From: Nitrospira sp. LK70
GTDB lineage: Bacteria > Nitrospirota > Nitrospiria > Nitrospirales > Nitrospiraceae
Reading direction: 5' to 3'
Length of the DNA stretch: 34,954 nucleotides
NCBI GenBank assembly: GCA_011090425.1
Contig: PHGD01000039.1
Location: 1 to 34,954 of the forward strand
Shown here one piece after another: positions 2,606 to 27,193 of this stretch (position 1 is the stretch's first letter; each line of letters opens with the position of its first letter). Below the pieces are notes generated by a model that worked only from the letters and a program-made list of their open reading frames with translations, was not told where the DNA came from and made no database searches. Made by a program: the position numbers and the translations under genes.

Positions 2606-2645
2606 CCGGATGCAGAAACCTCTGTTTTCAAGCATGGTCATCTCG

Positions 2646-2705
2646 AAAAAAGACTCCCGGTACCGTTGCTCTCTTTGCGCGGATCAGGAATTGCGCACCT
2701 CGCGC
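2646..2705 (+). repeat. Direct repeat, left copy of a gapped pair
   Basis: AAAAAGACTCCCGG (about 2647-2660) and GGATCAGGAATTGCGCACCT followed by CGCGC (2681-2705) recur in the same order and orientation at 5402-5415 and 5467-5491. In this copy the two blocks lie about 20 bp apart; in the right copy about 51 bp apart. The pair brackets the UDG-like, HTH and DUF genes. It could be decayed copies of a mobile gene or the flanks of an insertion. Confidence 0.6.
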
Positions 2706-2797
2706 AGCACCAGGGTCTCCTAATTGGGAAGAAGCGGTGGCGGTGACAGGCACCAAACAAGGCCGGTCCGTAAACCAGCAGCCCGGTCGAACACGAG

Positions 2798-2804
2798 GTT
2801 AGGC
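2798..2804 (-). other. Integron-like core site at the end of the UDG-like gene
   Basis: The plus strand reads GTTAGGC here; the minus strand reads GCCTAAC, matching the RYYYAAC core that begins an integron attC site. The TAA inside it is the stop codon of the UDG-like gene, as is common in integron cassettes. A full attC palindrome after this core is not recognisable: the sequence runs into GC-rich DNA and the GGTGACAGGCACC run near 2740, so a site, if real, may be truncated. Confidence 0.4.
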
Positions 2805-3416
2805 TGTTGCAAGCGCGCCGAGCAGCTCTCCAATATGCATCCGCATCTCTACTTCCCACTGCATTGTTGGGTACTTGGTTGCCATGATGGTGTACTGGCG
2901 GCCGTTGACAACAGCACGACTGAGTCGTCCAAGCGCCAGAGGCTGGTCCATAGTCCAGTCGTTGCCAATGTCGAGAAGCACGGGGTGAACGATGTTTGCG
3001 CTCAAGCCACAAATCGCAACGGGGCAAAGCACGTCGATCTCGCGGGCAAGGAAGCGCCGGGCACAGGCTTCGGATACTCTATGGTCCGGCTTGTGAGTCC
3101 CTTGGATTCCACACGTCGCTGTGTGCACGAGGAAGAACCCTTGGTCAAGAAAGTCTGAGATCGACGTCAGGCGAACACCGATCGAGGCAAGCACTCTGAA
3201 GAGACCAAGGCGAAGATTGTCGTGAGGGTCAGTGTAGAAATGACACCCCCGCTTCGGCGGTGCCACTCCAATAAAAAGTATCCTGAGCGGGTCGGGCGGG
3301 ACGACGCCGTGCGGATAGATCAGGCCGGGCGGGCAATCCACCGGAAGTTCGCTGATCGCGGTGCGACACGCGACGCAAGAAGTAACCTCACTCTGCAAGG
3401 CTTGCCAGGAAATCAT
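2799..3416 (-). CDS. Divergent uracil-DNA-glycosylase-superfamily protein with likely Fe-S cluster
   Basis: This 205-residue protein looks like the iron-sulfur branch of the uracil-DNA glycosylase superfamily. A CVAC pair (C14, C17) is followed by IGVAPPKRGCHFY (about 49-61), where the family has its G-E/L-A-P-G catalytic loop. Later C102 and C118 give the C-x2-C ... C-x15-C spacing of the 4Fe-4S ligands in family 4/5 enzymes. The second catalytic motif, normally HPS/HPA, appears as TKYPTMQW near 180-187 and lacks the His, so activity on uracil is doubtful. Start ATG 3416 has no Shine-Dalgarno sequence, but GTTAGGC lies 10 nt before it and the stop lies inside GCCTAAC. Confidence covers the fold, not the substrate. 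Confidence 0.55.
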   Translation of the reverse strand: MISWQALQSEVTSCVACRTAISELPVDCPPGLIYPHGVVPPDPLRILFIGVAPPKRGCHFYTDPHDNLRLGLFRVLASIGVRLTSISDFLDQGFFLVHTATCGIQGTHKPDHRVSEACARRFLAREIDVLCPVAICGLSANIVHPVLLDIGNDWTMDQPLALGRLSRAVVNGRQYTIMATKYPTMQWEVEMRMHIGELLGALATA

Positions 3417-3426
3417 ACGGTTTGCA

Positions 3427-3480
3427 GCCTAACGTTCCGGTTCACGTGCCTGCGTAGCAGGTCGCTTGGAACCGGTAAGC
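3427..3480 (-). other. attC-like hairpin site upstream of the UDG-like gene
   Basis: Read on the minus strand, this 54-bp stretch ends in GTGAACCGGAACGTTAGGC, which resembles the right half of an integron attC site (L box, spacer, GTTRRRY core). It contains nested inverted repeats: CCGGTTC pairs with GAACCGG, and inside that CCTGC pairs with GCAGG around a 3-nt loop. The opposite core would be GCTTACC, two mismatches from ideal. It lies 10 bp before the start of the UDG-like gene, where a cassette boundary is expected. No integron integrase is visible in the window. Confidence 0.4.
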
Positions 3481-3556
3481 CCGCAGCTTCCACCAGTTCC
3501 GACACACTACACAGGGCCGTCATACAACGGTTCGTATATCGTCATTGTGCTCAGGA

Positions 3557-3931
3557 TTAAGGGACAGCAAATGTCTTGTGTTTGTGCGGCCCGCCTGTAC
3601 AGACTGCCGATGCCGTTCTTGCCGGCACCTCAATAAGGACCTCGGGATGACGCTCGGCAATCTTCAAGAGCTGCTTGGCGGCGCCGGAAGGCTTACGGCG
3701 GCCTTGCTCCCATTGTTCCAGAGTGCGCTTCGAAACACCCAGTGCTGCGGCAAACTTAGCCTGCGATAGCCCGCTCTTGAGCCGCACGCGAATGACGTAC
3801 GACTTGGCGTCAACTCTCGTCCTCTTGCCCCCACCAGCTTTAATCTCCCGTATGCCGTCCAGGACTTCTTGCCACACATCGCGTTTGGCCTCGAATTTGG
3901 CGAGGGTCTTGCCGGTTAGTTTTTTACCCAT
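3557..3931 (-). CDS. XRE-family HTH antitoxin-like regulator (orphan)
   Basis: This 124-residue protein has a Cro/CI helix-turn-helix at about 48-95, with GLSQAKFAAALGVSKRTLEQWEQG as the two core helices. The fold and the lysine-rich N-terminus match antitoxins of RelE/HigB-like modules of the HigA/NadS type, which bind their own operator. ATG 3931 follows a GAAGG ribosome site. No RelE-type toxin lies next to it; its neighbours are another HTH gene and the UDG-like gene. The last 20 or so residues after EVPA are not typical of the family and may come from a lost stop. A second, truncated copy of its first 30 codons lies at 6473-6561. Confidence 0.8.
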   Translation of the reverse strand: MGKKLTGKTLAKFEAKRDVWQEVLDGIREIKAGGGKRTRVDAKSYVIRVRLKSGLSQAKFAAALGVSKRTLEQWEQGRRKPSGAAKQLLKIAERHPEVLIEVPARTASAVCTGGPHKHKTFAVP

Positions 3932-5167: not shown

Positions 5168-5392
5168 ATGATGCTGCTTCGCACTGTCCTTACACTCAGC
5201 TTGCTCTCATTCTTGCTCTTCTCCCTTGGCTGTCAAAAAGAGAGCGAGTCCATCGTGTCGATCGCGATTCCTCCGACGAACGCGAAGATCCTCTACATCG
5301 CCACAAATGATGCGGTTTACAAGTCCCGTGATTGCGGTGGAACTTGCAATATGTTTAAGAGGTTCGAGCCTTATATATTCATTCATGCATAG
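5168..5392 (+). pseudogene. Truncated second copy of the propeller lipoprotein gene
   Basis: This is a broken paralogue of the gene at 7371-8417. Both share the upstream run CTATGGTTAGGTCCCGCCACTA, a lipoprotein signal peptide (here ending FSLGC), and then QKESE-S/A-IVSIA, PTNAKILY and ATNDAVYKSRD in nearly the same DNA sequence. After about 60 residues the similarity stops: the expected GGGTWERF becomes GGTCNMFK, and the frame ends at TAG 5390-5392 without any further repeats. The second to seventh blades are missing, so a folded propeller is impossible. The copy keeps the signal peptide, so a short secreted peptide could still be made if it is transcribed. Confidence 0.85.
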
Positions 5393-5401
5393 CCATATCA
5401 C

Positions 5402-5491
5402 AAAAAGACTCCCGGCATGTTTACAGTCTCAGTCGATCCTGTGCGGCACGTCACTCAGCGGCTTGTGGATCAGGAATTGCGCACCTCGCGC
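5402..5491 (+). repeat. Direct repeat, right copy of a gapped pair
   Basis: This is the partner of 2646-2705: AAAAAGACTCCCGG at 5402-5415 and the 25-bp GGATCAGG...CGCGC block at 5467-5491, separated here by 51 bp. It starts directly after the truncated lipoprotein copy and overlaps the small frame at 5417-5587. Confidence 0.6.
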
Positions 5492-5587
5492 CTCTATGGT
5501 CGGCCCGTGGAGGACGAAGGTTATGTTGAGCTGGCCGGCTACGTCGAACGCCTCAAGCTGGAGAGAATAAGGATGACAGGCGCTTGA
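5417..5587 (+). pseudogene. Short open frame, likely a gene fragment
   Basis: This frame of 56 codons starts MFTVSVDPVRHV and ends VERLKLERIRMTGA. Its middle (RLVDQELRTSRLYGRPVEDE) looks like real protein sequence, charged and without stops. The corresponding DNA block recurs at 2681-2705 inside non-coding sequence, so both are probably remains of one larger gene I cannot name. No ribosome binding site was found. Treat it as a fragment, not as an expressed gene. Confidence 0.35.
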
Positions 5588-5671: not shown

Positions 5672-6127
5672 TCAGTCGATGATTTCCACTTTCTTTCCCA
5701 TGGCCTTGGCGCGCTTAAGGCATTCTGCGTCGGTCACCGAACAACGGAGCGTGTCGAGTTCGGTTTCCTCGACGATCTCGATCTTCTTGCCTTGCGCCTT
5801 GGCCTGTTTGAGACAGGCTGTATCCGTGACGACGCACTTGGCTGTATCCGACAGGGCAGGCTGGTTGACGATCGACACCTGCTTGCCTTGATCTCTGGCC
5901 CGCTTCAGGCACGCCTGATCGGTGGCGACGCACTGTACGGTCTCTTCCGTTTTGTTGATCGCCTTGTCAATGGATTGGTCGATGCGCTGGTTCATGCGGT
6001 CTTGGGCCTTGCGCTCAGCGCTATCTACCGCGCGGTCAAACATCTTATCAAAGAGACCATCGGCTTGAGCTGTTCCGGCAGTGAAGGCTATGACAACCGA
6101 GAGACCGACCACCCAATGGATCTTCAT
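5672..6127 (-). CDS. Secreted protein with three cysteine-pair repeats
   Basis: This 151-residue protein has a clear signal peptide (MKIHWVVGLSVVIAFTAGTAQA, cleavage likely after about residue 22). A highly charged helix follows (about 24-62, FDKMFDRAVDSAERKAQDRM). Then come three tandem repeats beginning at C66, C98 and C129. The unit is C-V-x-T-D-x-x-C-L-K-x-A-K-x-x-G-K-x-V-x-I-V, with a period of 31-32 residues. Each unit holds one C-x6-C pair, possibly a disulfide in the periplasm or a metal or heme site; a CXXCH heme motif is absent. AAGGAGG before ATG 6127 is a strong ribosome site. I do not recognise the family and assign no function. It stands alone, with no operon partner. Confidence 0.8.
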   Translation of the reverse strand: MKIHWVVGLSVVIAFTAGTAQADGLFDKMFDRAVDSAERKAQDRMNQRIDQSIDKAINKTEETVQCVATDQACLKRARDQGKQVSIVNQPALSDTAKCVVTDTACLKQAKAQGKKIEIVEETELDTLRCSVTDAECLKRAKAMGKKVEIID

Positions 6128-6389: not shown

Positions 6390-6472
6390 ATCTTAATCTA
6401 CGACATAGGGGTCAGAGCACAATTGTATAGGGAATTGTGGGCGAAGTACGGACGCCCCGGCCATCGGCGCTG

Positions 6473-6561
6473 ATCTCCCGTACGCCGTCCAGGACTTCTT
6501 GCCACACATCGCGTTTGGTTTCGAATTTGACGAGTCCCTTGCCGGTTAGTTTCTTACTCAT
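6473..6561 (-). pseudogene. Truncated copy of the XRE antitoxin gene, 5' end
   Basis: ATG 6561 opens MSKKLTGKGLVKFETKRD and then VWQEVLDGVREI, which matches the first 30 residues of the intact gene at 3557-3931 with only a few substitutions. The DNA aligns without gaps over about 89 bp (3843-3931 against 6473-6561). Similarity ends abruptly before the DNA-binding domain. With the lipoprotein copies it shows that this locus was duplicated. Confidence 0.85.
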
Positions 6562-6596
6562 GAAATGCCTCAAATACTCCGGCCGCTGCTTTTGCT

Positions 6597-7162: not shown

Positions 7163-7370
7163 GATAGAGGCTTCCTGGACGGGTAAACCATCTGGGATGC
7201 AGTGCTGAACAACCTGATCCAGTGATCTCAAAGGGAAGTCTACTGAAACCTCTGCTTATTATCAACTAAGGCGTGGAGCGCGACGTTATAGCTTAGGAGT
7301 TGGGCCGAACGTAGGCGCTCCGTCCTGCTGCTTGACTCCCATCCGATCGCTATGGTTAGGTCCCGCCACT

Positions 7371-8417
7371 ATGCTGCGTCCCATTCAACTTCCTTTGCTC
7401 TGCCTCTGCCTTCTGGTCATTGGATTCGGTGCGAATGGCTGCCAAAAGGAGAGCGAGGCGATCGTGTCGATCGCGCTCCATCCGACGAACGCGAAGATCC
7501 TCTACGTGGCCACGAATGATGCCGTTTACAAGTCCCGTGATGGCGGTGGGACTTGGGAGCGATTTCCGAGTTTCAGCGCGCGCCGGGTGACGACGCTCGC
7601 GATTGACCCATTGCTCCCTGCGACGATCTATGCCGGTACGATGGGGGATGCGGTCTACAAGAGTCCGGACGGAGGCCAACATTGGCTGCCGCATAACGTG
7701 GGATTGAAGGAACATGTCTCATTCGTGAATCAGTTCGTGTTTCATCCCGCGTTGAGCGAGAAGATCTATATTGCGACGACCGTGGGTGCGTTTCTTACAA
7801 AGGACGGCGGCCGTGAATGGGAAGAACGGATGAACGGGATGAAGGAAGTGCACATCGTGACATCCATGGCCATCAATCCTAAGGATCCCACAATCCTGTA
7901 CGGTGGCACGACAGGCGGGATGTATCGTACCGACGATGGGGCGATGTCGTGGAAAAGGATCAATAACGGGCTGATCCCGGAGAGCGAGCTGATGGCGTCC
8001 ATGGCACTGGGTGTCAACGCCATTGAAATCGATCGGATGAATCCCGGTATCGTCTATGCGGGCACGACCAAAGGGCTCTTTCGCACCACGAACAGTGGAG
8101 ACCAGTGGGAACGGATCGGACAATCCCTTTCCGATCCCTTTATCAGCAGCATTCTTCTTCACCCCACTGAGCCGTCACAGCTCTATGTCGGTGGTCCGAA
8201 AGGGGTCTCGAAAAGCTCGGATGGCGGGAAGACCTGGCAGTCCGTGAACCAGGGTTTTGCGACGCTCAATATTCGCGCTCTGGCCATGAATCCGAAGAAT
8301 CCGCAGTTGCTCTACGCAGGTACCAATGGTAGCGGGCTTTATCGTTCCACCGACGCGGGCGCGACTTGGACTTCTGTGCCGCTTAAAGGAGTGCAGCCTT
8401 CAGTAGGCTCAGGTTAA
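7371..8417 (+). CDS. Seven-bladed propeller lipoprotein (YCF48/BNR-like repeats)
   Basis: This 348-residue lipoprotein has a hydrophobic N-terminus ending ANGC (lipid Cys24). Seven repeats follow of the form H/N-P-x-x-x-x-x-I/L-Y-x-G-T-x-x-G-x-Y-K-S-x-D-G-G-x-T-W. The blades begin near PTNAKILYVATND, PLLPATIYAGT, PALSEKIYIAT, PKDPTILYGGT, RMNPGIVYAGT, PTEPSQLYVGG and PKNPQLLYAGT. The Asp-box (S-x-D-x-G-x-T-W) is typical of BNR/sialidase-like and YCF48-type beta-propellers. Such proteins act as scaffolds or assembly factors; no enzymatic role can be inferred. ATG 7371 gives a clean signal peptide. A truncated paralogue with the same upstream sequence lies at 5168-5392. Confidence 0.85.
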   Translation: MLRPIQLPLLCLCLLVIGFGANGCQKESEAIVSIALHPTNAKILYVATNDAVYKSRDGGGTWERFPSFSARRVTTLAIDPLLPATIYAGTMGDAVYKSPDGGQHWLPHNVGLKEHVSFVNQFVFHPALSEKIYIATTVGAFLTKDGGREWEERMNGMKEVHIVTSMAINPKDPTILYGGTTGGMYRTDDGAMSWKRINNGLIPESELMASMALGVNAIEIDRMNPGIVYAGTTKGLFRTTNSGDQWERIGQSLSDPFISSILLHPTEPSQLYVGGPKGVSKSSDGGKTWQSVNQGFATLNIRALAMNPKNPQLLYAGTNGSGLYRSTDAGATWTSVPLKGVQPSVGSG

Positions 8418-26485: not shown

Positions 26486-27193
26486 ATGAGATCCCTGACG
26501 GTTTTGAACAAGACTATCACCGAATGCACGGCCTGTCCCCGGTTGGTCGTCTATCGAGAGGCCATTGCACGGCAGAAACGGAAACAATATCGTGATTGGA
26601 CCTACTGGGGGCGGCCGGTTCCCGGTTTCGGAGATCCCGGAGCGCGGCTCTATATACTTGGGCTCGCCCCTGCGGCACATGGTGGCAATCGGACGGGCCG
26701 CATTTTCACCGGTGATCGAAGCGGCGATTGGCTGTATGACGCATTGTATCGGTATGGATTCGCCAACCAGGCTGCATCGCAACACAGAGACGACGGTTTA
26801 TCCTTGACGGATTGTTACATCGGGGCACCCGTGCGGTGCGCACCGCCAGGTAACAAACCGACGCCGGATGAGTTTGAACGCTGCGGCCGATTCCTGCAGG
26901 AGGAGGTGCATCTCCTGAAGAATCACCGCGTGGTGATTGCTCTGGGAAAGATCGCCTTCGATCAGTACCTCAAGATCTGCCGGACCCAGGGGCGTGCCAT
27001 GCCGACGCCGGTCCCCAAATTTGGCCATGGTATCGTCTATCGCTTACCCTGGGACGTGACGCTGCTGGGTTCCTATCATCCCAGCCAACAAAACACGTTT
27101 ACCGGGAAATTGACCCGCTCGATGTTTCACGCGGTGTTTCGGAGGGCGAGAAAAGAAATTGGGTCATCGCGTAATCGAGTGGGTCGATTGTGA
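26486..27193 (+). CDS. Family 5 uracil-DNA glycosylase (UDGb type)
   Basis: This 235-residue 4Fe-4S enzyme removes uracil and related damaged bases from DNA. Cluster ligands are C14 and C17 (ECTACPR), C118 (VRCAPP) and C133 (ERCG). The first catalytic motif is ILGLAPAAHGGNRTGRIFTGD (about 57-77) with the Ala-Ala of family 5 in place of the acidic residue of family 4. The second motif is SYHPSQQNTFTGKLT (about 196-210). Both motifs are complete, in contrast to the divergent relative at 2799-3416. It lies divergent from the transglycosylase gene and is translated alone. Confidence 0.9.
   Translation: MRSLTVLNKTITECTACPRLVVYREAIARQKRKQYRDWTYWGRPVPGFGDPGARLYILGLAPAAHGGNRTGRIFTGDRSGDWLYDALYRYGFANQAASQHRDDGLSLTDCYIGAPVRCAPPGNKPTPDEFERCGRFLQEEVHLLKNHRVVIALGKIAFDQYLKICRTQGRAMPTPVPKFGHGIVYRLPWDVTLLGSYHPSQQNTFTGKLTRSMFHAVFRRARKEIGSSRNRVGRL

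Follow-up and report, generated by a model that had tools for sequence, protein, structure and literature searches.

The window, by which we mean the whole stretch of 34,954 nt that was analysed, contains a short insert spanning about 2775-3552, which the relatives examined lack at the equivalent place. At its center is one intact gene for a protein resembling the uracil-DNA glycosylase (UDG) superfamily, read on the minus strand and bounded on both sides by sequences of the kind found at integron recombination sites (attC). The features, listed in the direction in which this gene is read, are as follows:

3483-3552, minus strand: about 70 nt separating the upstream attC from the MqsA-like gene, whose homology to relatives stops close to 3552
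3427-3482, minus strand: upstream attC of about 55 nt, nearly whole, with R'' degenerate (~3 nt missing) and hairpin arms present
3427-3433, minus strand: 5' cassette core GTTAGGC, the R' of the upstream attC (right half 3427-3450, 18.8 bits)
2799-3416, minus strand: intact ORF of 205 aa, UDG-superfamily-like, the cassette gene
2781-2804, minus strand: left half of the cassette's own attC, made up of R'' GCCTAAC, a 9-nt spacer and L'' GACCGGGC (18.5 bits)
2775-2780, no strand: approximate junction cutting the attC at its center; CrtC-lipocalin 3'-end homology starts at ~2775
2627-2775, plus strand: CrtC-lipocalin 3' remnant (copy A), joined to the truncated attC and matching the 3' end of a gene in another locus (L050)

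The region from a BNR gene (7332-8417) to a kynureninase gene (1406-2605), in which all of this lies, is hypervariable across the genus and holds unrelated insertions and remnants. Two decayed CrtC-lipocalin 3' remnants are present in the window, at 2627-2775 and at ~5382-5572, about 2.7 kb apart, and the gene whose 3' end is matched by copy A (L050 9248-10411, minus strand) scores 207.6 bits with Pfam CrtC and 165.8 bits with Lipocalin_9. A stretch of 85 bp next to the cassette, which recurs in Nitrospira genomes, was considered as a recombination site or island boundary and rejected, as it is the CrtC-lipocalin 3' end. Elsewhere in the same region, the start of the MqsA-like gene (3557-3931) recurs as a partial second copy at 6461-6571, and 5672-6127 encodes a 151-aa protein with three repeats of ~31 residues (a 68-nt DNA repeat), 98.7% identical in another genome (G018).

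On the minus strand, GTTAGGC (3433-3427) lies 10 nt 5' of the ATG (3416) of the UDG-like gene, and GCCTAAC (2804-2798) lies at its other end, where the TAA within the core is the stop codon of the ORF. The first-pass annotation had reported these cores and their positions, and direct reading confirmed both. The two cores are correctly oriented around a single gene, and R' and R'' at its upstream and downstream borders are perfectly complementary. A GTTRRRY core stands a few bases before the start codon, and an RYYYAAC core stands at the 3' end and begins an attC left half. This is similar to the gene cassettes of class 1 and sedentary chromosomal integrons, in which one ORF likewise runs from GTTRRRY to RYYYAAC, the 3' core containing the stop codon and the arms lying on the correct strand. 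GTTAGGC as such is not in excess: it occurs twice in the window, where 1.5 copies are expected by chance on average. The evidence therefore lies in the placement and the flanks of the two copies and not in their number.

This opens the way to an alternative in which the cores and their attC-like flanks are coincidental, and in which either ordinary horizontal transfer or an illegitimate recombination event brought the UDG-like gene into a locus already crowded with unrelated insertions and remnants. That about two GTTAGGC per window are expected by chance agrees with such a view, as does the outcome of searches with full-length attC models. The upstream site scored only 7.8 bits (E 5.3 in the window) with covariance model R1, built from attCs near Nitrospira integron integrases and attCs of class 1 integrons, and 10.3 bits (E 1.3 in the window) with R2, built from 60 matches aligned to R1, neither score being significant. 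Scores of this order are what damage to the sites would explain. Rfam gave no match at gathering thresholds.

Half-site profiles, built from the distinct sites in the R1 and R2 alignments (attCs of class 1 integrons and of Nitrospira, none of them from the window), gave a different picture. Across both strands of the whole window, the highest-scoring left half lies at 2781-2804 on the minus strand, with 18.5 bits (runner-up 9.5), and the highest-scoring right half at 3427-3450, also on the minus strand, with 18.8 bits (runner-up 10.1). Among 654,780 places in 20 Nitrospira loci the left-half score was reached at one and the right-half score at none, and in 100 shuffles of the window they were reached in none and in one, respectively. 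Because the borders had originally been chosen by their cores, the cores were then left out of a test of the flanks. At these fixed positions, only fractions of 8e-4 and 5e-4 of the places in the window do as well as the core-free flanks, and none of the other consensus cores (98 in all) has better flanks than the two borders. Their scores are lower than those of most real attC sites, as would be expected of damaged sites. Profiles trained on Nitrospira sites alone gave both borders the same ranks, and profiles trained on class 1 sites only did not single out the two borders in the window. An attC covariance search had been proposed as the check on the cassette. It speaks against intact attCs at this place, while the half-site profiles pick out both borders. 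A cassette on the plus strand carrying a reversed gene was also considered, and is disfavored by the canonical position of the extra-helical base and by the profiles, both of which favor the minus strand.

Further support comes from outside the window. The first homologue of the UDG-like protein to be recovered, in Nitrospira sp. isolate RCA (genome G021, SPAW01000005.1), has a gene that is followed 73 nt past its stop codon by an attC (24.8 bits, E 0.0032 over 328 kb). A wider search of 395 Nitrospirota genomes added homologues in eight further genomes, with no adjoining attC within the stretches examined, so the family is not limited to cassette genes. The genome of the window itself has other attCs, on contigs C197 (53 bits), C120 (39 bits) and C112 (35 bits), and in that of C120 the stop codon lies inside the core, as in the UDG-like gene. 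It has no integron integrase above the cut-off, the best match to TIGR02249 reaching 85 bits against a cut-off of 265. We consider coincidence unlikely, since each half-site is the top-scoring one of its type in the window and lies on the correct strand, their flanks stand out even without the cores, and the homologue in isolate RCA likewise ends in an attC.

The upstream site was described in the first-pass annotation as resembling the right half of an attC, with nested repeats. The right half is indeed there, but the site is more than that, being a nearly whole attC in which R', L' and the paired arms are present. The repeats CCGGTTC/GAACCGG and CCTGC/GCAGG form one hairpin over 3427-3482 (-13 kcal/mol, z -2.8). 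An attC in a Nitrospira array (L080:5718-5781) has the same layout, including the spacer sequences around AACCGG, and differs by having ~3 nt more in R''. Allowing for a 3-nt deletion, the left arm of the upstream site fits the left profile in the top 8e-4 of places, a value uncorrected for the several starts and deletion lengths that were tried, so that support for this arm is modest.

The left arm bears on another way of arriving at the observed order. A single cassette circle, inserted after being cut open at the center of its attC, would leave a right half upstream and a left half downstream of the gene, as is seen here, and the perfect complementarity of R' and R'' would also suit it. However, the upstream site also carries a left arm, which pairs with the right arm and fits the left profile once the deletion is allowed for, and the downstream L'' GACCGG pairs poorly with the upstream L' CACGTG. 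We therefore regard an opened circle as very unlikely, and prefer a fragment of an array.

A 36-residue frame, MTALCSVSELVEAAGLPVPSDLLRRHVNRNVRLQTV, is open on the minus strand at 3415-3525; it spans the upstream attC and overlaps the start of the UDG-like gene (ATGA). The hairpin could be imagined as part of this small coding frame and not as a recombination site, but the frame has no Pfam match and no DNA match in 59 relatives, and it would leave the downstream half-site and the attC in isolate RCA unexplained, making this proposal hardly credible. The DNA upstream of the UDG-like gene (3417-3560) likewise has no match in the 59 other genomes. The part of it between the MqsA-like gene and the attC, 3483-3552, is probably the tail of a preceding cassette, now lost.

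Downstream of the gene, where the attC had been held not recognizable, a left half is in fact recognizable (2804-2781), ranking first in the window. It reads GCCTAAC CTCGTGTTC GACCGGGC and within ~10 nt meets the CrtC-lipocalin 3'-end homology. No right half of this attC was found, the lipocalin homology taking over from ~2775, and the 3' attC is thus incomplete.

We suggest that the insert is, very probably, a truncated cassette remnant of integron origin, a fragment of a former array which is dead rather than an intact cassette. This reading is supported by the half-site profiles, the attC beside the homologue in isolate RCA, the other attCs in the genome, and the lack of an integrase above the cut-off. 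The earlier proposal of a lone cassette, possibly of an integrase-less kind, largely holds, in integron origin as in the missing integrase, and is refined in that the cassette is truncated. The fragment would consist of the nearly whole attC of the lost preceding cassette, followed by the UDG-like gene and by what is left of this gene's own attC, its left half; the cassette proper would run from G^TTAGGC to GCCTAAC, the core that holds the stop codon. It was most probably brought in through recombination by an integron integrase, or else came as one piece of an array. The junction suggests that the 3' attC was later severed at its center, through a deletion or an illegitimate join, and thereby fused to a CrtC-lipocalin gene in decay. 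As the downstream R' is absent, the upstream R'' damaged, and no integron integrase found in the genome, the remnant should not be excisable now and would be immobile by its anatomy.

The remnant, carried by a nitrifying bacterium, belongs to a known kind of machinery that has scarcely been described in the Nitrospira group. Unlike a regular integron gene cassette, it has only the left half of its 3' attC, a damaged R'' upstream and no integrase found in its genome; the last also sets it apart from a complete integron. With CALINs, as defined in IntegronFinder 2.0, it shares attC-bearing DNA without an integrase, but these have by default at least two attCs (PMC9024848), whereas the remnant has one damaged attC and one half-site, and is not a CALIN by that definition. 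Fused cassettes arise when an attC is lost in part or altogether (PMC4670013). Part of the attC after the cassette gene is lost here as well, but the cassette is joined to the remnant of a chromosomal gene and not, as in fused cassettes, to the next cassette.

Integron integrases and cassette arrays do occur in the genus Nitrospira. A TIGR02249 integrase above the cut-off is present in 8/79 genomes (10/79 when two partial matches are added), and R1 attC matches are present in 42/76. Among the attC-bearing genomes, 34/42 have no integrase match by our own count, a figure that has to be read with the incompleteness of MAGs in mind. One contig (L114, G004:C248) carries a cassette array of five attC matches of ~127 nt, spaced 0.6-0.75 kb apart. 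For the phylum, PMC9024848 reports only two CALINs, and Ca. Nitrospira inopinata carries both. The present remnant adds to the evidence that exposure to integrons has been wide in Nitrospira, and indicates that damaged cassette remnants, missed by full-length attC models, can be detected with lineage-specific half-site profiles. What makes it of note is the frequency of integrase-less attCs in Nitrospira, and a cargo from a UDG-like family without the usual HPS motif.

The cargo protein scores 23.9 bits with Pfam UDG, just below the cut-off of 24.3, and its homologue in isolate RCA, 37% identical, scores 38.2 bits. It has a GxAPP-like motif 1 and the CxxC and CX15C cysteines. Such cysteines occur in uracil-DNA glycosylases of families 4 and 5, which the protein also resembles in motif 1 and, with a score just short of the cut-off, in the superfamily match. 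The HPS motif of those families, in contrast, is replaced by KYP (KYPTMQ) here and by other sequences in the relatives of the protein. A second UDG gene in the window (26486-27193), of the family 4/5 type, has this motif intact (YHPSQQ). Because HPS is replaced in the protein and its relatives alike, glycosylase activity appears doubtful on the strength of these motifs. Phages, plasmids, viral contigs and the PDB gave no match to the protein, and neither did PADLOC or PHROGs, its predicted structure is poor (mean pLDDT 37.5), and a simple scan limited to the sigma-70 type gave no sigma-70-like site upstream of its gene on the minus strand.

It is conceivable, and in our estimate rather unlikely, that UDG-fold proteins without the usual catalytic motif are scattered through Nitrospirota, partly as integron cassettes and sometimes beside a conserved partner ORF, in a role other than uracil repair, such as defence. 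Just upstream of two of the homologues (L062 7708-8409 and L148 361-981) lies an unannotated ORF. The two ORFs are related to each other (28% identity), and each could possibly form a two-gene unit with its neighbor.
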